This document shows, one piece after another, positions 1 to 8,774 of a stretch of DNA of 21,133 nucleotides (position 1 is the stretch's first letter; every line of letters starts with the position of its first letter). The position numbers and the translations under genes are program-made. The stretch is from a virus: positions 1 to 21,133 of the IMG/VR virus record IMGVR_UViG_3300006919_000574, one strand, 5' to 3'. The notes under the pieces were generated by a model. It saw only the letters and a list, made by a program, of their open reading frames with translations. It had not been told where the DNA came from and did not search any database.

Positions 1-287
1 CCTTTACTAACCGTATGCCTATTCATTCCCACCATTAACGCCAAGTAGCTAACCGCATCATGGCTAGAATAATCTTGAGCTGAATACCTCTCGCACAACG
101 CAAACAATACCAGCTTCTCTCTCGCCTTAATCTCCGAGCTGCCCAGATGTTTTTTATACCACTTCCAAACCACCTGTTTCAGCTTCGAGTAACTCTTATA
201 CTTCATGGCTACACCGTAGGTTATCAACCCGCTCTTTTCTGGCTCACCGATTGGCTCGACCACCAACCACCATTTCTGCTCTTTCAA
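1..287 (-). CDS. Partial helix-turn-helix protein, C-terminus cut by window edge
   Basis: The minus-strand frame is open from the amber codon at 288-290 to the window edge, so the C-terminus is missing. The translation is basic and helical (KYKSYSKLKQVVWKWYKKHL) and ends in a helix-turn-helix-like stretch, with EKLVLFALCERY followed by DAVSYLALMVGMNRHTVSK. This is the pattern of phage winged-helix regulators or replication initiators, in which a helix precedes a recognition helix with R-x-T-V. The start is uncertain. The first ATG is at 204-206. TTG at 285-287 directly abuts the upstream stop, with AAGG about 11 bases before it. Codons 207-287 also read like protein (KWWLVVEPIGEPEKSGLITY), which favours the longer form. 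It follows a winged-helix gene in the same frame, so the two may be translationally coupled. A DNA-binding role is likely; its target is unknown. Confidence 0.6.
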   Translation of the reverse strand, partial: MKEQKWWLVVEPIGEPEKSGLITYGVAMKYKSYSKLKQVVWKWYKKHLGSSEIKAREKLVLFALCERYSAQDYSSHDAVSYLALMVGMNRHTVSK

Positions 288-653
288 CTAACTAACCGCC
301 TTAAGGCTTCTTTGCCTCTCAGTAAACCATTCATTTAATAACTGCATCGACTCCTTACACATTCTATACACTCGCTTCCTCTTATCCTTTCCTACCGCCT
401 TGCACATATATCCTCTCTCAACATAATCATCTAACACCGATGCTACAGTCGACCTACTCCCCATACTGCTTGGCAATAGTTTCACTATTGCTTCAAAATT
501 AATGCTCTTGCCACTCACGTCTGCAATAGCAACTTCTAACACTACAATCACATGTAGCGGACTAGTCCACCAGAACGACATAAATCCTCTTTGCCTTCTA
601 CTCTTATAAAACTGATCTCGAACACTTATCATTCTATCTTTTAACTGCTTCAT
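288..653 (-). CDS. Winged-helix (MarR-like) DNA-binding protein
   Basis: This 121-aa protein has the layout of a small winged-helix regulator. A basic N-terminus and a hydrophobic helix (HVIVVLEVAIADVSG) are followed by a turn and recognition helix (GSRSTVASVLDDYVERGY, residues about 65-82). A basic beta wing follows (DKRKRVYRMCKES). The ERGY...R..Y arrangement is typical of MarR-type and plasmid-type winged helices, but I cannot assign a subfamily. The ATG is preceded by GTGGAGGG about 10 bases upstream. A long leader carries a candidate promoter overlapped by a dyad, which suggests autoregulation. It ends at a TAG, after which the same frame stays open into another HTH gene. Likely roles are control of the early operon or of replication at the adjacent iterons; both are inferred from position. 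Confidence 0.65.
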   Translation of the reverse strand: MKQLKDRMISVRDQFYKSRRQRGFMSFWWTSPLHVIVVLEVAIADVSGKSINFEAIVKLLPSSMGSRSTVASVLDDYVERGYMCKAVGKDKRKRVYRMCKESMQLLNEWFTERQRSLKAVS

Positions 654-682
654 TGTTTTTCACCCTCCACTGAAAAAAATTA

Positions 683-718
683 AGTGAAACGTTTTACTAA
701 TATCCGCTTCAATTTCAA
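683..718 (-). promoter_or_regulatory. Candidate promoter with overlapping operator dyad
   Basis: On the minus strand, TTGAAA (713-718) and TAAAAC (691-696) are separated by 16 bases and point toward the gene starting at 653. The -10 lies inside AGTGAAACGTTTTACT (683-698), a 16-bp dyad centred on AAACGTTT with a single mismatched pair. A dyad over the -10 of a winged-helix gene is the usual layout of an autorepressor operator. The call is from sequence pattern only. Confidence 0.4.
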
Positions 719-758
719 CCCAACTTTATCCATAAATTTTACTGATATTTTTATCCCT

Positions 759-787
759 GAGAGTTGAGCCGAAAGGCTCAATCTCTC
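759..787. other. Strong hairpin in the non-coding gap
   Basis: TTGAGCC and GGCTCAA pair perfectly around a GAAA loop (UUUC on the minus strand). The stem extends by a further five pairs (GAGAG with CTCTC) past one bulged T, giving about 12 pairs. No T-run follows on either strand, so it is not a standard intrinsic terminator. It sits between the 23-bp iterons and the promoter of the winged-helix gene. Confidence 0.6.
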
Positions 788-810
788 TATTAGTCTAGTC
801 TAGGATATAT

Positions 811-879
811 GGCTACCCGTATAGCCAATTATTGGCTACCCATATATACAATAATTGGCTACCCGTGTATCCAATAGCT
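811..879. repeat. Three tandem 23-bp iterons
   Basis: GGCTACCC occurs at 811, 834 and 857, exactly 23 bp apart. Each unit continues with a similar A/T-rich part (CGTATAGCCAAT, CATATATACAAT, CGTGTATCCAAT). The first unit contains the dyad GGCTA-cccgta-TAGCC, and the junction of units one and two contains GCCAATtATTGGC. Exact period and AT-rich surroundings fit protein-binding iterons of a replication origin or a multi-site operator. The last copy overlaps the stop codon of the gene to the right. Confidence 0.75.
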
Positions 880-1636
880 AATCCTCCTCATCTTCAATAA
901 TACAAAAAATACCACACTCAAAGTTGTAAGATTTTAAGTCTCTACCTTTTGCATCTACTGGCAATTCTCTCAACGGTATTCTTTTATTTTTATACCTAAC
1001 TAAGTTAGCTCCTAATTCTTCTGATAGATTTGCTCTTTGCTCAAATACATCTGGAAATGTCTTACGCACTAAGTTCCAATAAGTTGGAGAACTAGCCTTA
1101 ACACAACCAATACAATTAGCATTAGGATAACCAAAAGAGTATATTTCAGGTAATTTAATTCCAGCATCTAATAAAATATCAAAACACCCTTGCTTGGTTA
1201 TACCTGCATCAATTAAAACTGTAAGCAAATCATCTCTTTGCGTAAGTTTGAATCTTTCTGCTCTTTTTTCTTCATCAGCAGTAAAGCCTAAGACAATATA
1301 ATCAGATTTATTTTTAACTTCCCATATTTGCCTAGCATTTTTCTTTAGATGTAATGTGCATGGCGCTCCAAAGTTGCCAGACATAAATTTTCTCTCTCTC
1401 CATACTGTTTCGCATGATTGATCTGGAAACTTGGGGTTAATTGCATATTCAATCTCTATACCTAACCACTTTTCAATATCTTTTAAGAATCTTTGATTGT
1501 CGTGATGTTCTTCTTTAATAGGATTATTAACAACTCTGATACGATTATTTGCACCATAAAGCTCAATAGTTTTTTTAGCCGCCACGGCACTTGCCGCACC
1601 ACAACTAAACCAAACTGTAATATCTTTATCTTTCAT
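878..1636 (-). CDS. PAPS-reductase-like PP-loop ATP pyrophosphatase
   Basis: This 252-aa protein belongs to the phosphoadenosine-phosphosulfate reductase / adenine nucleotide alpha-hydrolase superfamily. The N-terminal P-loop variant FSCGAASA (residues 10-17) keeps the S-x-G-x-x-S skeleton but has CG where SGGxDS is usual. Other family marks are GFTADEEKRAERF (117-129) and cysteines at 93 (APCTLHLKK), 175 and 178 (NCIGC), and 241 and 245 (CGIFC). These could ligate an Fe-S cluster or act in sulfur chemistry. It overlaps the small upstream gene by 11 bp at the distal end of the replication operon. Family members activate a substrate with ATP; in phages the substrate is mostly unknown. Sulfate assimilation, base or tRNA modification, and DNA-backbone chemistry like DndC are all possible. 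The fold call is fairly secure; the reaction is not. Confidence 0.75.
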   Translation of the reverse strand: MKDKDITVWFSCGAASAVAAKKTIELYGANNRIRVVNNPIKEEHHDNQRFLKDIEKWLGIEIEYAINPKFPDQSCETVWRERKFMSGNFGAPCTLHLKKNARQIWEVKNKSDYIVLGFTADEEKRAERFKLTQRDDLLTVLIDAGITKQGCFDILLDAGIKLPEIYSFGYPNANCIGCVKASSPTYWNLVRKTFPDVFEQRANLSEELGANLVRYKNKRIPLRELPVDAKGRDLKSYNFECGIFCIIEDEED

Positions 1637-1772
1637 CAGTTTTAAGAGCTAAAATTTCCTTTTTTAATGCCTGTAATTGTTGTTTTCTGTAACGCTCAAT
1701 CGCTTCAATTAATATTTCATTTTGCTCAATTTGTTTTTTAATCTGGTTAATTACTGTTCGAGTTTCACTCAT
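1626..1772 (-). CDS. Small coiled-coil protein, 48 aa
   Basis: From the ATG at 1770-1772 this reads 48 aa, almost entirely a charged helix with coiled-coil spacing (INQIKKQIEQNEILIEAIER). I do not recognise a family. The start is chosen because GGGAG lies eight bases upstream. A longer upstream reading exists, but it would cover the whole 43-aa gene next door in another frame. It overlaps the start of the PP-loop gene by 11 bp and follows the stop of the 43-aa gene by one base, so it is clearly part of the operon. Function unknown. Confidence 0.55.
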   Translation of the reverse strand: MSETRTVINQIKKQIEQNEILIEAIERYRKQQLQALKKEILALKTDER

Positions 1773-1773
1773 A

Positions 1774-1905
1774 TTATTTGCTCCCTTTATCTTTCTTTTT
1801 GGTTTCTTTTTTGGTCTTTTTCTTACCAAAAATCCTATCCCAATTATCTTCAAAAGTTTTCTTATCTATTTGTCTTGGTCGTTGGTCGCTTCCCTTTCCG
1901 TTCAT
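1774..1905 (-). CDS. Small conserved phage protein with DRIFG motif, 43 aa
   Basis: Translating the gap after the primase-helicase gives a 43-aa lysine-rich protein. Its first half reads RQIDKKTFEDNWDRIFGKKK and its tail is almost only Lys, Thr and Glu. I recall short proteins with a D-x-x-x-F/Y-x-x-N-x-D-x-I-F-G-K core from many phage genomes, usually annotated hypothetical. The ATG at 1903-1905 has AGGAG immediately upstream (a doubled AGGAGAAAGGAGA purine tract). It begins 12 bp after the primase-helicase stop and ends one base before the next ATG. Spacing, ribosome site and the motif together support a real gene. Function unknown; the basic tail might bind nucleic acid. Confidence 0.7.
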   Translation of the reverse strand: MNGKGSDQRPRQIDKKTFEDNWDRIFGKKKTKKETKKKDKGSK

Positions 1906-1917
1906 TCTCCTTTCTCC

Positions 1918-3774
1918 TTAATCCCAATCAAAGGATTTATTATTTTCTAAAATTTCTAAAACTGCACCACGTCTAACCAACGTCTTAGTTGCATAATCTA
2001 CGTTTCCAGAATTACTTTTAACTAGACTGGCTTTTACTACCGCCATTCTGTCAACTGGTATGCCTTGCTCCATGCATATCTTTTCGCAAGTATCGTTATC
2101 CGCTAACCACATGGCTATCGCGAAACGAACACTATCTGTAATACTTGATGCTCCTCTTATCTCAGCACGGTGCGAAAGTGCATCGTCTGAATCATTCGTA
2201 AGGGCAGATTTTGCCAAGTGATGAACAGTAAGAGTCGTAACACCTAATCTGGCACTTATATTTGCACAATAACTACCCCATAACTGGCCAACTTCATTAC
2301 TTGAACTGATATTTCCAGTAGTAAATGCTTGTAATGGGTCGAATACAACCAGTTTTAAGTTAGGTATTGTCTTTAATTCCTCTACTAATTCAGTCGCTTG
2401 TGATGTTACCCCTTCTTCTCTTAATAATATCATTGGCTCTTTTTGTTCTGGAATAGGAAATACATAAACATCGTATTCAGATTTAAACCGCAAACCTAAT
2501 GGGTCTAATGATGCAATCCTTCTGTGTACTTCGCCAAGATCATCTTCAGCTGCAAAAATTACAGTTGAGCCTTTTTGTTTTATATGTTTACCCCACCAAT
2601 CACCGCCAGTTGCAATACCTAGAGCTAACTGAATCATTGATAAAGACTTACCAACGCCACCAACTGCCGCAATTATTCCTGGTTTACCAAAAGGAATAAA
2701 ACTATCTACTAACCACTCTATTGGTTTTGGCTCTTCAACCAAGTTACGAATAGCATATTGTCTAATATTAAACTTAGACTCTATTAACTCTAACTTAACT
2801 TGTTCTAATCCCTTCTCCAAATACAAATCATTGAAGTCACCAATAATAGAAGGCAATCTGGAAACTGCATTAGTAATACTATTAACTACTTCATTGGCAC
2901 ATTTCTCACCAATCCCAGAGGTATCGTTATCAAGTGCAATAATAAACTTTGCACCCGTTATAGAACGCAATCTCGTACACGCAGAGACACAGAAATTTGC
3001 AGAGAATACCACGGCGACAGGTATGCCTGTAGCTTCGTATATAGAAGCTCCTGTTGCGTATCCTTCACATAAAATAATCGTTTCTAAACCAGGTAATTCA
3101 AATGCTTCACAACCAATAAGAAAAACATTTCCCTTAACTTCCCCACCTCCAGCAAACTTTTTGCTTCCGTCTGGCATAATGTATTGAAGTGACTTTATTT
3201 CTGAAACTAATGTTCCATTATCATTATTTCTTATGATAGAATGCACACCGATTAATAGGTTTCCATTAATCGTTTTTAACCCATAATTTTTAATCTTTTT
3301 ATCTGTGAGATACTTATGCTCTATAACTTCATTCGCACCAGCAAACTTTTCTTTAACGTATACGGCAACTTGCTCATGTTGTATTTTCTTAGCCTCTTCT
3401 CTCCTCTTTTGTGCCTCCTCGAGCTTGGATTGTAATATCCTTTTTTGCTCCGCAGACATCTCATTAGGATTATAGGAAGTAAACTTGTTCTCTAAATTAG
3501 TACGCCAATTACCATAAACGCATACAAAGTTTTGATCTAATTGGTTATAAACATAATATCCTGAACGCTCCCCACCTTTATCTGGTCGATGATTCGGCCC
3601 AGCACTTACAGGTACTCTAACTAAGTTTCCTGTTGTATCTAAGAAATCAACTAATAAACCATGAGAACGCATCTCATTAATTAAATCAGCATTAGATTTA
3701 CTTGTATTACTAAAGGCATAGTTGTCATCTATAACAACGCCTTTATCTCCATAAAATTGCGTTAAGTCAGTCAT
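1918..3774 (-). CDS. Toprim primase fused to RecA-like (RepA-type) helicase
   Basis: This bifunctional replication protein makes primers and unwinds DNA at the phage fork. From the ATG at 3772-3774 it is 618 aa. An N-terminal region and charged helix (about 105-135) lead to a Toprim domain with CEGYATG (Glu237) and the acidic pair in LDNDTSG (282-284), then DFNDLY (313-318). The C-terminal half is a RepA/RecA-like ATPase with Walker A GGVGKS (372-377), FAAEDD (407-412), Walker B LVVFDP (475-480) and TVHHLAKS (516-523). No N-terminal zinc finger is present in this chain, though a Cys-rich protein is encoded just upstream. A TTG 39 bp further upstream is possible but lacks a good ribosome site. 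It overlaps the zinc-finger gene by 8 bp. Confidence 0.88.
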   Translation of the reverse strand: MTDLTQFYGDKGVVIDDNYAFSNTSKSNADLINEMRSHGLLVDFLDTTGNLVRVPVSAGPNHRPDKGGERSGYYVYNQLDQNFVCVYGNWRTNLENKFTSYNPNEMSAEQKRILQSKLEEAQKRREEAKKIQHEQVAVYVKEKFAGANEVIEHKYLTDKKIKNYGLKTINGNLLIGVHSIIRNNDNGTLVSEIKSLQYIMPDGSKKFAGGGEVKGNVFLIGCEAFELPGLETIILCEGYATGASIYEATGIPVAVVFSANFCVSACTRLRSITGAKFIIALDNDTSGIGEKCANEVVNSITNAVSRLPSIIGDFNDLYLEKGLEQVKLELIESKFNIRQYAIRNLVEEPKPIEWLVDSFIPFGKPGIIAAVGGVGKSLSMIQLALGIATGGDWWGKHIKQKGSTVIFAAEDDLGEVHRRIASLDPLGLRFKSEYDVYVFPIPEQKEPMILLREEGVTSQATELVEELKTIPNLKLVVFDPLQAFTTGNISSSNEVGQLWGSYCANISARLGVTTLTVHHLAKSALTNDSDDALSHRAEIRGASSITDSVRFAIAMWLADNDTCEKICMEQGIPVDRMAVVKASLVKSNSGNVDYATKTLVRRGAVLEILENNKSFDWD

Positions 3775-4138
3775 CTGCCTGTGCCTTGGAGTTATTGAGA
3801 TAACTTGACACAAGCCTTCTTACAAAATCTATCCTATCTTCTTTAGTCCATTCATGCAGAACAAAGGAATTATTTTTTTTAGAAACCTCTAGATATGTTG
3901 ACTTACTATCTTTTAATGCAACAGATAACAGCTCCTCGTTAATCTGTGCGAAATTTTTAATTTGCTCCATTTTTTTACCTTCTCCAATAAATTTAAGATG
4001 TTCATAGCAACAAGCAGCTTTAATTTTGCCGTTGCGAATATGAAGTAAGGGAGAAGCCAAGCCGTGACAGTATGAACATAAACTTGGCCTCCGATACTTG
4101 AGATCATCATTATTAAAAAGGTAAATCGTCTTCGTCAT
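3767..4138 (-). CDS. Small Cys/His-rich (zinc-finger-like) protein
   Basis: This 123-aa protein has CSYCHG at residues 21-26 and CCYEH at 43-47, a spacing fit for one zinc-binding site of the ribbon type. The remainder is a charged helical region (WTKEDRIDFVRRLVSSYL). I do not recognise a named family. It sits between the SSB-like gene (26-bp overlap) and the primase-helicase (8-bp overlap). The primase chain lacks the zinc-binding domain that usually reads the template in Toprim primases. A separate chain that supplies it is an attractive but unproven reading. The start is a plain ATG. Confidence 0.65.
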   Translation of the reverse strand: MTKTIYLFNNDDLKYRRPSLCSYCHGLASPLLHIRNGKIKAACCYEHLKFIGEGKKMEQIKNFAQINEELLSVALKDSKSTYLEVSKKNNSFVLHEWTKEDRIDFVRRLVSSYLNNSKAQADD

Positions 4139-4601
4139 CTACATCGCTTGGGAAGATTTCTTCTTTTGGTAATACTTCTTTAGGGTCTACATTTTCTTTA
4201 GCAGTTGTAGTTCCGTAAGGTTTCCAACCATTACCAAAGTTATCTGCAATCTCTAAATAACCTTTCTCACCAACGACAAGTTCACCTTCTACTTTTTTAC
4301 CCAGAAGTTCATCAGTATTTTTCATTGACGCTACTCCCATTGCATTTAGCATTTTAACTAATGACTCTCTGCCTATCTCAACAGGCTTGTCATTGTTATG
4401 TGCCATAGTAAAAGCATGACTTACTTTTATTATTTCGCCTTCAACATCAAAGTGAATCTTCAAAGCCTTCCAACCGTTTCTGCCTTCAATCATTTCTGAG
4501 CCAGCATATTCAAAGTTGTATCTTCCAGGCTTTACCTTTTCTCCACCGCCAGATGTTTCTCCAGCTTCTAATTTATCCAAACCGAATTCTGTTAAATCCA
4601 T
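4113..4601 (-). CDS. Single-strand DNA-binding protein (DUF669-like)
   Basis: This 162-aa protein resembles the DUF669 group of phage ssDNA-binding proteins. The core has KPGRYNFEYAGSEM followed by alternating beta-strand segments (WKALKIHFDVEG). The C-terminal tail is acidic and ends DDEDDLPF, like the partner-docking tail of bacterial SSB (which ends in D-x-I/L-P-F). The ATG at 4599-4601 is chosen over one nine codons upstream because a perfect GGAGGT lies six bases before it. It is flanked by the Sak4-like ATPase and the primase-helicase, the usual setting for a phage SSB. Expected role: coat ssDNA and recruit recombination and replication proteins through the tail. Confidence 0.78.
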   Translation of the reverse strand: MDLTEFGLDKLEAGETSGGGEKVKPGRYNFEYAGSEMIEGRNGWKALKIHFDVEGEIIKVSHAFTMAHNNDKPVEIGRESLVKMLNAMGVASMKNTDELLGKKVEGELVVGEKGYLEIADNFGNGWKPYGTTTAKENVDPKEVLPKEEIFPSDVDDEDDLPF

Positions 4602-4639
4602 GTTGTTACCTCCGTAAAAATTTAACAATTAATATTTAA

Positions 4640-4834
4640 TTACCCAGGATCGTATTCCTCGTAATCATTCGCTCGACTTATTTCTTCTTCAAGTGCGTCA
4701 ACAACATCTGCTAAGACTCTGTTTGCACCTAACGGGAGAATAAGGTCATCATCTCCGTTTTTTTCCATGCAATCTTCAACCAATATTTTGGCTTTCGTTA
4801 AAAAGAATATTAGTTTTTCGTTTTGCGTTGCCAT
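4640..4834 (-). CDS. Small acidic protein of unknown function, 64 aa
   Basis: A 64-aa acidic, helical protein (TKAKILVEDCMEKN, then VLADVVDALEEEISRANDY) ending in a run of Glu, Tyr and Asp. I recognise no family. The ATG shares its A with the TAA stop of the upstream Sak4-like gene (TAATG), so the two are almost certainly translationally coupled. It lies between the recombination ATPase and the SSB-like gene, so a role in replication or recombination is the contextual guess. Confidence 0.6.
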   Translation of the reverse strand: MATQNEKLIFFLTKAKILVEDCMEKNGDDDLILPLGANRVLADVVDALEEEISRANDYEEYDPG

Positions 4835-5616
4835 TACTTCGCTATGAGTTTACCGATTTCAGCCCAAGTCTTTTCAGCTCTAACAATAAAGTCATCGCCT
4901 TCTTCTACGACTGGTATCTCTTCTGGTAATCCATATCTATTCTTGGCAACCGCAGCTGGTGATTCAGTTGTCACTAACACCCTGCCAGATTGAACAGTTT
5001 TACTTGTCAAACCTTTACTACCTTGAACTTTAACAGTTCCTTTTTTGTAGTTTAGGAATAAACACATATCACTAGCCTCTAAGACTAATGCACTTGCTGC
5101 CTTATGCATTTTTAATTCATGCCTATCGTATGCTTCGGTGCTTGGATCGTGAAATGCTTTAATTTGGTTATGAGCAATCATAACAACACGCATTTTCTTT
5201 TCGTTTCTTAATCTATTAACTAAATCAAGTATCTCTCTCCAATACTTCAACGCTTCTGCATAACCACGACCATAACCAAAAGATTCAATCGATGGTTGTT
5301 TGTGTGCCTCACAAGTCTTTGCATGAATAAGTGGCTCTAACCAATCTAAACTATCAATAACCAAAGTATTGTATTCAAGTTCATCTGCATCAACTAAAGA
5401 TTTTAGATACCCATAAAAAGTATCGTAGTCTCTTGCTAGTGGAAAGTGAGGGATGTCTCTGTTGTTAGTTAAGATTCCCAAACCTTCTTCTGTTTGCAAA
5501 ACAATAGGATTTTTACTTCCTACAGCAAGTGTTGTTTTACCTAGTCCAGAAGGACCATAGATAATGACAATACTTGGTTTTGCTTTTGCTTTCTTTTGTA
5601 TTGCTGCTAATGACAT
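4834..5616 (-). CDS. Sak4-like RecA-family ATPase (phage recombinase)
   Basis: This 260-aa P-loop ATPase has Walker A GPSGLGKTT (residues 21-29), Walker B TLVIDSLDWL (84-93, Asp88) and a sensor-like MIAHNQI (146-152). Length and motif layout match the AAA_24 / Sak4 group, RecA-core phage proteins that support single-strand annealing and recombination with a cognate SSB. The SSB-like gene lies just downstream and two nucleases upstream, a common grouping in temperate phages. The ATG shares one base with the upstream stop. The AAA_24 fold is clear; recombinase activity rests on family knowledge. Confidence 0.82.
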   Translation of the reverse strand: MSLAAIQKKAKAKPSIVIIYGPSGLGKTTLAVGSKNPIVLQTEEGLGILTNNRDIPHFPLARDYDTFYGYLKSLVDADELEYNTLVIDSLDWLEPLIHAKTCEAHKQPSIESFGYGRGYAEALKYWREILDLVNRLRNEKKMRVVMIAHNQIKAFHDPSTEAYDRHELKMHKAASALVLEASDMCLFLNYKKGTVKVQGSKGLTSKTVQSGRVLVTTESPAAVAKNRYGLPEEIPVVEEGDDFIVRAEKTWAEIGKLIAK

Positions 5617-5912
5617 TAGTTAATCTCCTTAGTGACACCTTCTAACTTCACAGGTTTTTTATAAGGCGGTAGTTCTGCTTCTAACTTCTCTAAAGTGTTA
5701 GCTACATTTTTTCTAACCGACTCCATGTGATGCACAGTTTTAGTTGCCAGTTGATAGGCTTCGTTTAACTGTTGCTCTGCTTGCAAGTCTTTACTGATTT
5801 CTTCAACCATAGGTCTTGTTCTATCAGTTAAGTCTCTCTCAAATATCTCTCTTGGGTTTCCGTCTTTATCCGTAAAACTCAAAAGAGGTTGCTCTTTCTT
5901 TTCATTTACCAT
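5616..5912 (-). CDS. Helical protein of unknown function, 98 aa
   Basis: From the ATG at 5910-5912 this is a 98-aa, mostly helical, charged protein. A segment FTDKDGNPREIFERDLTD leads into a long helix (VEEISKDLQAEQQLNEAYQL) and a second helix with coiled-coil character. The start is chosen for GGAGGA about seven bases upstream; a longer reading would run far into the nuclease gene. It overlaps the nuclease stop by 11 bp and shares one base with the Sak4-like start. I do not recognise a family. Context suggests an accessory of replication or recombination. Confidence 0.6.
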   Translation of the reverse strand: MVNEKKEQPLLSFTDKDGNPREIFERDLTDRTRPMVEEISKDLQAEQQLNEAYQLATKTVHHMESVRKNVANTLEKLEAELPPYKKPVKLEGVTKEIN

Positions 5913-6645
5913 TTGTATCCTCCATGGATTTATATGTTTCGCAAACTTCTTTGTGTGAACAGAATTTGCACCAAGTTCCAGCATTAAAGCTAGGCTCATC
6001 ACCCATTGCTTCATCACAAGCTGGTTTTAGAATATTCAAACCCCAGTCAACTAAGTCGACTGCTTGAATATCCCAAGTTCGTATAGGCCCATCTTTATGA
6101 AAGGCTTTTTTGTTTGGTTGTATGATTGTCATTTCTATGACTGTATCTTCGTTACCCCATCTTGATAGGCAACCTAGGGCGTAGCACATTAGCTGTTCGT
6201 TCATCACAACATCTACCGCCCATGCACCAGACTTTAAATCGCCAACGACCATTCTATTACCTTCGCCCAGGATAACTGCATCAGCAGTTCCCCAGAGATC
6301 ATCATTTATATCTGGAGCATTTACTTTTTCTTCTACAAGTAATTTACCGTTTAGTTCTTCAGTTCTTCTATTAATGTATTCAACATAGATTTCTGCCATG
6401 TCGATATCATCTTGCGTGATATCAAAACTAAATCCGTCAACATCTACCGTTCTACCAAGATAGTAGTCTGATAATGTAATTCCATCTAATCTGTTTTTAA
6501 GCAAGGCTTCTACCATTTCGTGAGTAGAAGTACCTCTAGCTGCTGCCATGCTACCTTTACGTTCCGCAGCTGCGTTTATCTTTGCACTAGCTGGACATCT
6601 AATAATTCTATTAATGCTACTGGGTGACAATATCGCGTGTGACAA
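5902..6645 (-). CDS. Cas4/RecB-like PD-(D/E)XK nuclease (DUF2800-like)
   Basis: This 247-aa nuclease carries the PD-(D/E)XK core in the sequence WGTADAVI (118-125, Asp122) then VVGDLKSG (133-140, Asp136 and Lys138), with Gln151 downstream. Cys17 (IIRCPAS) and the C-terminal triple Cys226, Cys229 and Cys235 (CKFCSHKEVC) form the four-cysteine Fe-S signature of Cas4/AddB-type nucleases. The layout matches DUF2800 phage proteins, expected to resect DNA ends for the Sak4/SSB recombination pair. Translation starts at TTG: no ATG occurs before residue 33, which would delete the first cysteine, and a GAGGAG site lies seven bases ahead of the TTG. Confidence 0.85.
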   Translation of the reverse strand: MSHAILSPSSINRIIRCPASAKINAAAERKGSMAAARGTSTHEMVEALLKNRLDGITLSDYYLGRTVDVDGFSFDITQDDIDMAEIYVEYINRRTEELNGKLLVEEKVNAPDINDDLWGTADAVILGEGNRMVVGDLKSGAWAVDVVMNEQLMCYALGCLSRWGNEDTVIEMTIIQPNKKAFHKDGPIRTWDIQAVDLVDWGLNILKPACDEAMGDEPSFNAGTWCKFCSHKEVCETYKSMEDTNGK

Positions 6646-7039
6646 GTCCGTACTCCTCTCTGATTAGTGCTGCAAATAGTTCCGTAGAAATATTCATAGC
6701 AATATTAAAATCTTCCATTTCAAATAAATTGTTTTTGATGGCGTAAGTGTTTGCAATCATTACACGCCAGTCTGATCTATCAGCTCTAAACCATAAGCAT
6801 GGCAAGAGTCTTACCTTCTTTGCTTGTGTGGTTGTTTGTTCCCAGAAGTTTTTTAAGTCTCCTGGTGTTATAACTTTTCTTCTTTTAACTTCGATTGCAA
6901 AACCATCTAAGCCAAGTAGGTCGTGACCACCGCCGAATGTTTGTGAGTAGTTTACTTCTAATTGGATACCTAAAAGTTCTTTGATTTCATCAATGACCTC
7001 TCGTTCTCCACGCCTACCTTTATTTCTAGCGTTGACCAA
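6617..7039 (-). CDS. Holliday-junction-resolvase-like PD-(D/E)XK nuclease
   Basis: This 140-aa protein begins with a basic helix, KGRRGEREVIDEIKELLG (Glu12/Glu14), then GGGHDLLGLDGFAIEVKRRK (36-55) with Asp40, Glu50 and Lys52. This is the complete E...D...ExK set of small resolvase-type PD-(D/E)XK enzymes such as archaeal Hjc and phage analogues. It would cut branched recombination or replication intermediates before packaging. The start is TTG at 7037-7039, one base after the upstream stop, with GGAG six bases before it. It overlaps the downstream nuclease by 29 bp. Nuclease fold is well supported; the junction-specific role is inferred from family and neighbours. Confidence 0.78.
   Translation of the reverse strand: MVNARNKGRRGEREVIDEIKELLGIQLEVNYSQTFGGGHDLLGLDGFAIEVKRRKVITPGDLKNFWEQTTTQAKKVRLLPCLWFRADRSDWRVMIANTYAIKNNLFEMEDFNIAMNISTELFAALIREEYGLVTRDIVTQ
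6643..6658 (-). promoter_or_regulatory. Ribosome-binding site that fixes a TTG start
   Basis: GAGGAG (minus strand, 6653-6658) lies seven bases before TTG at 6643-6645. It justifies the non-ATG start of the Fe-S nuclease and keeps its first cysteine. Confidence 0.7.
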
Positions 7040-7040
7040 G

Positions 7041-7223
7041 TTACTCTCCGACTTGTGATGATTCTTCTAGCTTTTTGATTTCCTCGAACTTGTATCTAAC
7101 TTGACCGCCTAACTTTACATACGATGGTCCTTTGCCATGTGAACGCCAGTTCTCTAAAGTTCTTGGAGACATTCCCCAACGCTCAGCAAGTTCGTTTTGA
7201 TTTAAAAATATTTTTTCTTCCAT
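7041..7223 (-). CDS. Excisionase-like HTH (MerR/HTH_17) protein
   Basis: This 60-aa protein has the HTH_17/AlpA layout: LNQNELAERWGMSPRTLENW (7-26) gives the helix-turn-helix and YVKLGGQVRYKFEEI (35-49) the short wing that ends in a R-Y/F-x-x-x-E/D-I motif. Such proteins bend DNA at attachment sites as Xis or act as small transcription regulators. It is the first gene of the leftward replication operon and lies 430 bp from the end of int, with the DUF3310 gene in between. ATG start with a weak AGGT upstream. Excisionase or early regulator cannot be decided from sequence. Confidence 0.75.
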   Translation of the reverse strand: MEEKIFLNQNELAERWGMSPRTLENWRSHGKGPSYVKLGGQVRYKFEEIKKLEESSQVGE

Positions 7224-7252
7224 GTTATTACCTATTACTTCGTGATTGTGAT

Positions 7253-7282
7253 ATTCTACTCGATGTAATTTTAATAAAGCAA
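7253..7282 (-). promoter_or_regulatory. Candidate promoter of the replication operon
   Basis: Minus-strand TTGCTT (7277-7282) and TAGAAT (7253-7258) are 18 bases apart; the -10 differs from TATAAT at one position. It ends 29 bases before the ATG of the excisionase-like gene. It is the best match in the 160-bp gap between the divergent genes. I see no convincing promoter for the plus-strand gene, though the gap is AT-rich. Confidence 0.5.
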
Positions 7283-7383
7283 GTAGCTGAACAAAAATAA
7301 TAGAAATAATATTGAGATTTAAACTACAGAAAAAAATTACATAAAATTTATCAATAAAATTAAATCATTATTTGGAGGAATAA

Positions 7384-7659
7384 ATGAGTATAGATAATGC
7401 AACACCTGAAGAGTGGGATAGAGCCAGAATGAAAGCAACACAAAAACAAATTGGTGGAAGCCATTACAAAGATAAAGGCATACAACCATTGGAGTATGCT
7501 TACAGTAATGGATTAACGCCTAACTTAACTAATGTAGTTAAGTATGTAACCAGAGAAAAAGAAGATAGAGTGAAAGACTTACGAAAAGCCATTCACTATA
7601 TCGAACTTGAATTAGAAATGGTCTACGGTGTTGACCCAGACGGTAACCCTTTAGATTAA
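7384..7659 (+). CDS. DUF3310 family protein
   Basis: The only plus-strand gene, 91 aa. KQIGGSHYKDKGIQPLEYAY (residues 21-40) followed by NVVKYVTREK and DLRKAIHYIELELE is the hallmark of DUF3310, a small phage family. Part of phage T7 gp1.7, which has nucleotide kinase activity, is related to it. Whether this short form has any kinase activity cannot be told; no P-loop is present. GGAGG lies five bases before the ATG, a strong ribosome site. It diverges from the excisionase-like gene and converges on int. Its TAA (7657-7659) overlaps the stop of int on the other strand inside TTAATTAATTAA. Confidence 0.82.
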   Translation: MSIDNATPEEWDRARMKATQKQIGGSHYKDKGIQPLEYAYSNGLTPNLTNVVKYVTREKEDRVKDLRKAIHYIELELEMVYGVDPDGNPLD

Positions 7660-8774
7660 TTAATTAACTTTACAGAACCATCATCTATTGCATTACCAAC
7701 TAAGCTGGCATTTGTAGTAGATGTTTGGTCGTAGATGTGCATATATCTATCCATTGATGCTAGACTTGTATGACCAAGTAAAGTTCCAACTTCTTTAGTA
7801 GACATCTTCCCAGAGTTTATAGCTGTTGAGGCATAAGAGTGTCTTAGATCATGCAGTTGTAAATCTGGACAACCGCATACTTCTCTTGTTTTATTCCAAA
7901 TTTTTCTAACACTTTTTACTTTAACTATAGTGCTGTCTTCAGACTTATTAGTTAAATTATTTAGCTTATAAATAATTTTCATAGCCTGGTCGTTTAACCA
8001 AATAACTCTTTTCTTATTTGTTTTTAACCCAGTCTTATGGTCTAAAACTGGTAATTCTATTCTATTACCTCTCTCATCTTGGACTAGATGTTTCCATTTA
8101 GCTTTAGATATTTCATCGCCTCTGGCACCAGTAAAGAACTGTAGTCCTATTTTAGATACTGAATATATAAGACTAGGGTCTTCTTCATATCTTCTGGCTA
8201 GTTCTATAAAGATAGCTTTCTTTTCTTCATCTGTGTAATACCTACTTCTTGCCACCTCATAGTTTTTGCTTATCTTTTTAGTAGGGTTTTTATCTAACAG
8301 TTCCAATACATCGATAGAATAGTAGTAAGCTGCTTTTAAAAATACTAAACATTTATTTGCTACCGTTGGACTTCTTTTTGTTAGCTCCTGGAACCATTGT
8401 ACTAAATCACTTTTACTAACCTTTGACGCGGTAGTATTACCAAAGAAGGGTTGTATGTTTTTTATATAAATATTTTCTTTTGTTTTTGTTTCTTGATTTT
8501 TATGTTGCAAACTTTTGATGTAGTTCTCCCACATATTATCGACTGTATATTCATTTGCCTTTTGTTTCTTTTTCTTTTCTTCAAAAGGATCAATACCTTG
8601 TGCAATTAAACCTAATATCTTTTGTGCTTCTTTTCTTGCAATGTTTATTAATACATTTCTTGGTGCTATTTTTTTCTCTCTTCTTTTGCCATCAATTCTG
8701 CAATGAATATAGTATCCAGTTGGATAGATTTTAAGACTATTTATTTGTTTATCAGTTGTGTATTTTGCCGCCAT
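7656..8774 (-). CDS. int: Tyrosine recombinase / phage integrase
   Basis: This 372-aa integrase has all tyrosine-recombinase landmarks: Arg218 in GARGDE, Lys247 in HKTG, His308 and Arg311 in LHDLRHS, His335 in LLGHTS, and the nucleophile Tyr344 in MDRYMHI. Residues 1-60 resemble the arm-type DNA-binding domain (YYIHCRIDGKRREKKI), and 75-165 the SAM-like core-binding domain. It catalyses integration at the adjacent attachment site and, with an Xis, excision. The ATG has GGGAG six bases upstream. Its 5' leader contains one of the two 20-bp arm-like repeats, so Int binding could repress its own gene. Its stop overlaps that of the convergent DUF3310 gene by 4 bp. Confidence 0.95.
   Translation of the reverse strand: MAAKYTTDKQINSLKIYPTGYYIHCRIDGKRREKKIAPRNVLINIARKEAQKILGLIAQGIDPFEEKKKKQKANEYTVDNMWENYIKSLQHKNQETKTKENIYIKNIQPFFGNTTASKVSKSDLVQWFQELTKRSPTVANKCLVFLKAAYYYSIDVLELLDKNPTKKISKNYEVARSRYYTDEEKKAIFIELARRYEEDPSLIYSVSKIGLQFFTGARGDEISKAKWKHLVQDERGNRIELPVLDHKTGLKTNKKRVIWLNDQAMKIIYKLNNLTNKSEDSTIVKVKSVRKIWNKTREVCGCPDLQLHDLRHSYASTAINSGKMSTKEVGTLLGHTSLASMDRYMHIYDQTSTTNASLVGNAIDDGSVKLIN

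Follow-up and report, generated by a model that had tools for sequence, protein, structure and literature searches.

A conserved three-unit repeat array and a covarying winged-helix protein as probable replication origin and initiator in a group of uncultured phages

Introduction

Iteron plasmids such as P1 and pSC101 encode autoregulated initiators and carry a few iterons, spaced by about two helical turns, beside the initiator gene; initiators of this type contain two winged-helix domains. In phage replication protein O, the C-terminal region binds the helicase loader. The iterons of the lambda origin are imperfect inverted repeats of 19 bp accompanied by an AT-rich tract (PMC7466680). The PLE satellite of phage ICP1 has a RepA_N domain and an origin with three semi-palindromic iterons of about 30 bp; the DNA-binding domain covaries with the origin, the rest is conserved, and origin swaps confirm the cognate pairing (PMC8263062).

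The locus described here belongs to a known kind of system with a protein family that appears to be new, and its point of interest is what may be a natural two-residue specificity code. It lies in a virus record of 21,133 bp, the whole of which was analysed (the window), and consists of three repeats followed by the gene of a 145-aa winged-helix protein. PLE is the closest demonstrated case: the two share three semi-palindromic iterons, a DNA-binding domain covarying with the origin (here putative) and the swapping of modules. They differ in that the pairing was shown there by origin swaps and is read here from sequence comparison, and in that PLE RepA has a C-terminal domain, its homology with the 145-aa protein not being established. 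With the lambda origin and O protein the locus shares the imperfect inverted-repeat structure of every iteron, an AT-rich tract beside them and a dedicated (here putative) initiator, to which weak O-like family matches of the 145-aa protein can be added. Lambda has four iterons of about 19 bp inside gene O, whereas here three of 22 bp lie outside the gene, accompanied by a conserved hairpin and a 145-aa protein without a visible recruiting domain. The likeness to P1 and pSC101 is that a small number of iterons, spaced by about two turns, adjoin the gene of the (here putative) initiator, but their initiators have two winged-helix domains and the 145-aa protein has one. By analogy, the present system would work like those of lambda and PLE; membership in either protein family is not established. 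None of the titles and abstract openings listed by the literature searches describes the array of this phage group.

Results and Discussion

Organisation of the locus

The genes of the window run on the minus strand, in the order excisionase-like HTH_17, PDDEXK, exonuclease, Sak4-like ATPase, Toprim_3/AAA_25 primase-helicase and PAPS-reductase-like gene, after which come the repeats, the gene for a 121-aa protein and that for a second HTH protein, of which the first 95 aa are included. The features around the repeats are the following, in gene direction:

1918..3813, minus strand: 631-aa Toprim_3 + AAA_25 primase/helicase, end of the replication operon
878..1636, minus strand: PAPS-reductase-like gene (phrog_424), inserted next to the array
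854..875, minus strand: candidate iteron unit 1, ATTGGATACACGGGTAGCCAAT, a 22-bp quasi-palindrome found at the same position in relatives
831..852, minus strand: candidate iteron unit 2, ATTGTATATATGGGTAGCCAAT
808..829, minus strand: candidate iteron unit 3, ATTGGCTATACGGGTAGCCATA
788..807, minus strand: conserved AT-rich element after the array, ATATCC and then TAGACTAGACTAATAG, with 5-bp repeats, in near and far groups
759..787 (about), minus strand: hairpin, GAGAGATTGAGCC-TTTC-GGCTCAACTCTC
716..758 (about), minus strand: conserved AT-rich leader, ATATCAGTAAAATTTAYGGATAAAGTTGGGTTG
288..653, minus strand: 121-aa protein, winged-helix-like by eye, an optional gene between the array and the gene of the putative binder
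3..287, minus strand: N-terminal 95 aa of the 145-aa winged-helix protein, likely TTG start, with ...GMNRHTVSK at the start of the recognition helix

The first-pass annotation had placed the repeats between the replication operon and two genes for DNA-binding proteins, a description that fits except that the PAPS-reductase-like gene intervenes between operon and repeats. This gene was found by tblastn (18 records) only in the window phage and in its near-identical twin, G001 (35,577 bp); together with a 75-aa ORF it occupies positions 878-1853, between a small basic ORF and the array. The twin completes the second HTH protein to 145 aa, and its operon ends after that gene, against convergent small genes. 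At positions 285-290 of the window the TAG stop of the 121-aa gene is immediately followed by the in-frame TTG start of the 145-aa gene, and this junction is kept in nearly all near relatives. Readthrough of the TAG was considered and rejected: an SD-like AGGCGG and a TTG belong to the 145-aa gene itself, and in L115 the two genes lie in different frames.

The core of the repeats, GGCTACCC, stands at 811-818, 834-841 and 857-864, with start-to-start distances of 23 and 23, so that the exact 23-bp period originally described is borne out. The repeating unit is wider than was first stated and consists of 22-bp quasi-palindromes with one base between units. Equally spaced (15-30 bp) triples of 8-mers number two in the window, for a mean of 0.003 in 300 first-order Markov windows, and a chance origin of the array was rejected on this basis. 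The summed palindrome score of the window's units is 22/33, compared with a mean of 12.3 and a maximum of 19 after shuffling. The palindrome is weaker in other array classes, several of which fall within the shuffled range, partly because their two half-sites differ. By eye, the units follow the grammar ATTG-NNN-ATACGGGT-NNN-CAAT, with variants, the core being alternatively the reverse complement, ACCCGTAT. There is no second occurrence of GGCTACCC-N15-GGCTACCC within the window, and a scan of 17 related records at 15/20 matches revealed no further comparable copies of the unit above shuffled controls.

The hairpin and AT-rich tract reported next to the repeats are also present (about 759-787 and about 716-758). 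Between array and hairpin, the window has tandem 5-bp repeats (CTAGA CTAGA CTA, 788-807) whose position is conserved; far relatives have CATAA CATAA CATA at this place. Hairpin pairing is kept with other sequences in seven far relatives (L064, L072, L075, L083, L102, L109 and L128). In the four genomes tested, the DNA beyond the hairpin ranks within the least stable 1.5-13.6% of 60-bp windows, AT-richness being modest in the window's own phage.

Conservation in relatives

Relatives were collected by searches with the primase (74 loci), with the 121-aa protein (35 loci) and, in viral contigs, with an alignment of the 145-aa protein (257 relatives, 80 kept). The region upstream of the 121-aa gene was compared in 69 loci, giving 45 distinct sequences; L118 is too short to reach the array. 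Relatives carry three repeats at the same place, followed by the AT element, the hairpin and the winged-helix gene, in a constant layout (array, ATATCC with AT-rich 5-bp repeats, hairpin, leader, gene). Conservation of the period in relatives had been proposed as a check on the repeats, and the three direct copies, about two helical turns apart, indeed keep a period of 22-23 bp (23 in the window) as their sequence changes. The repeat sequence varies between phages, and within a phage the copies vary in concert. In L041, L109 and L128 a good match is limited to two of the copies, and no clear array was found in L084 and L105. Among 27 further loci the array is present in all 20 that reach it, the other seven ending short of it, and the far groups each have their own array and their own helix. 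The repeats are best read, from this comparison, as a conserved array of the protein-binding type.

Phage records gave no match to positions 1-8000 of the window in a DNA search, nor to the 145-aa protein by tblastn, and genome-collection contigs gave none when searched with one 145-aa sequence. The alignment search of these contigs gave one distant match, L239 (CAJQJC010000020.1), a contig of a Candidatus Pelagibacter MAG. This sole relative of the putative binder in the genome collection has several repeats, ATATCC and a hairpin-like stretch; the match is too thin to name a host.

The array covaries with the recognition helix of the 145-aa protein

In 57 contigs chosen for holding both array and helix, far groups and contigs ending before the array being left out, there are 48 distinct array-protein pairs, and the triad of residues before TVSK follows the array class. 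The NRH triad goes with class A arrays (GGGTAGCC) in 16/16 cases, NRK with class BC (GGGTACCC/GTATGGTC) in 17/18, and HRH with class D, of TATA type, in 21/22; SRQ, found in L041, has an array of its own. By eye, the NNN triplets of the unit track residues 89 and 91, and residues 89-91 stand at the start of the modelled recognition helix. Across 23 non-redundant loci, array distance correlates with the distance of the recognition segment (r=0.55, p=0.0002), also after allowing for the primase (r=0.55), and more weakly with the rest of the 145-aa protein (0.33), the primase (0.29) and flanking DNA (0.37). Linkage alone does not explain the association between array and helix, because the 121-aa gene lies between the array and the gene encoding the helix.

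The pair of residues 89 and 91 predicts the array class with one error in 23, compared with four in 23 for the best of 1569 near pairs in the primase; neither column 89 nor column 91 by itself outperforms the best single primase column. The pair 119 and 122, which the model places in the loop joining the wing strands, makes three errors in 23. In a tree built from the 145-aa gene minus the helix (53 rows; the window, with its incomplete gene, is not among them), there are 6 changes of the triad and 8 of the array class. A test of independent pairs, underpowered and unable to reach significance, found three supported pairs that agree in most draws and none discordant (p=0.25). Two contigs break the triad rule, L078 (HRH with a class C array) and L201 (NRK with a class D array). 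They are reciprocal, come from the same metagenome (3300046167) and have the appearance of mosaics whose switch point falls between array and helix, which could be either genuine recombinants or chimeras of the assembly.

That the 121-aa protein binds the repeats is very unlikely, even if it looks winged-helix by eye and is encoded in the window directly after the array. It was not found in three of 17 records (G014, G015 and G017), all of which keep the array, and it shows no covariation with array class: the correlation with array distance is 0.11 (p=0.06) and falls to -0.05 after allowing for the helix (21 loci), and the best of its 300 residue pairs makes six errors with at most four residue groups (21 loci), or five without this limit. 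The 145-aa gene comes directly after the hairpin in G015 and G017, and in G014 the distance from the array to its start is about as short. The idea that one of the two HTH proteins binds the repeats is very probably right, but the binder would be the second, partial one, the 145-aa protein when complete, whose helix covaries with the array. The leader at 716-758 is missing together with the 121-aa gene in G015 and G017; with its AGTAAAATTTAY-GGATAAAG, it is conserved where that gene is present and gone where it is absent, and is perhaps a site for the 121-aa protein.

The repeats could also act as RNA, as stem-loops in a leader or a small RNA, given that class A units can pair internally and that a covarying hairpin stands beside them. 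This is extremely improbable: class C units pair only at their ATTG/CAAT ends, the orientation of the units differs from phage to phage, a change tolerated by a DNA dyad, an Rfam search gave no match, and the partner in the covariation is a DNA-recognition helix.

Fold and family of the 145-aa protein

The AlphaFold2 model of the 145-aa protein (pLDDT 90.8) is a winged helix with its recognition helix at residues 90-102. No replisome-recruiting domain was seen in the 145 aa, which, going by the model, leave no room for a separate C-terminal domain. Matches to families of replication initiators are weak: phrog_6643 ("replication initiation protein") matches 18/30 members, phrog_678 ("replication initiation O-like") matches 7/30 at E 0.01 or better (best E 0.00017), and the best E among the PHROG replication-initiation matches is 7e-6, the twin's own protein being at E 0.0006. 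In Pfam, HTH_36 matches 26/30 members, the twin's score lying below the cut-off of the database, and PF04492 (phage replication protein O) matches 4/30 (best E 0.05). RepA_N, which we take to be PF06970, was not listed in the scan of the 30 members, and the match to it is one of winged-helix fold only, at Z below 7. In this second fold comparison, initiator and Rep-DNA chains appear at Z 6.0-6.7 among many equal winged helices, with which 4pql, 4pt7 and 5kbj, presumably RepA_N initiators, are tied. A search of PDB sequences with the alignment gave no match at E up to 1, and Foldseek gave none under E 0.001, its best (E 0.012) being to winged helices of the MarR/ArsR/TubR type.

The presence of TubR chains among these weak matches, and of iterons upstream of a DNA-binding gene, would suit a plasmid-type partition site (centromere) for which the winged-helix protein serves as adaptor, in the manner of TubR/tubC. 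There is hardly any likelihood in this, as no partition NTPase was noticed beside the array and the integrase suggests a chromosomal prophage.

Origin or operator

We consider it probable that the array and the 145-aa protein are an iteron-type replication origin and its initiator. The three repeats would be the iterons, and the standalone winged-helix protein encoded just downstream would bind, probably as a dimer, to every one of the 22-bp quasi-palindromes. Side by side, the three occupied units could build a nucleoprotein complex, which would melt the AT-rich DNA next to it and recruit the primase/helicase that the phage encodes upstream; binding, dimerisation, melting and recruitment are the steps that we infer. 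The same protein is likely to autoregulate its own operon as well. An origin is favoured because there is one site of the unit per genome, at the end of the replication operon, with an initiator-type putative binder and a low-stability stretch beyond the hairpin. When ten genomes were searched for any three-copy array (period 18-60), the array itself was recovered in six, other arrays appeared in G011 and G012, and nothing was found in three genomes whose own array is below threshold; no rival array of non-coding appearance stood out in the ten.

The GC skew that the first-pass annotation had suggested as a check decides neither way: in four near-complete genomes coding bias makes the cumulative skew monotonic, and the array coincides with its minimum only through the rotation of the genomes to start there. 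Over about 20 kb following the array the GC3 skew is mostly below zero, and ahead of the array it is positive or close to zero, a sign opposite to that expected of a simple bidirectional origin at this place. GC skew gives no support to the origin.

The main rival, which we regard as unlikely if serious, is a transcription operator through which the 145-aa protein would act as repressor or activator on the promoter of its own operon, possibly serving as a lysogeny or immunity switch. In its favour, the gene begins a short way downstream of the array, the 5' end of the transcript would have the hairpin close by, and the phages look temperate because 16/17 related records have a tyrosine integrase. 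In the twin genome nothing else was noticed that is clearly a repressor. On this reading the specificity classes would represent immunity types, for which diversification into classes is typical. Yet an immunity repressor is expected at early promoters too, and no copies of the unit occur elsewhere in the 17 records; no sigma-70-like promoter was found at 600-1000, and the PHROG matches of the protein are to replication initiators, not repressors. The functions of origin and operator can coexist.

A natural specificity code

If the array is an origin, these uncultured marine temperate phages may hold a natural and readable specificity code, a proposal we put forward tentatively and would rate below an even chance. 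A one-domain initiator would switch origin type through two residues of the recognition helix, together with wing residue 122, as the half-sites of the iterons change in step around a constant 8-bp core. This would give the phages several initiator-origin types, each orthogonal to the others, on a genome that they otherwise share, and selection, for example by origin-directed nucleases, satellites or superinfection incompatibility, would keep these types separate. If true, an initiator and an origin would be named for a group of uncultured phages, and the helix residues set against the iteron triplets would make a comparative set for testing how an initiator changes its origin specificity. The same set would bear on what drives such diversification, as known from the conflict between PLE and ICP1.

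The integrase (7656-8774 in the window) has 29-40% identity to most relatives and 86% to that of G016, and the adjoining replication genes are highly conserved, a pattern that we read as integrase swapping.
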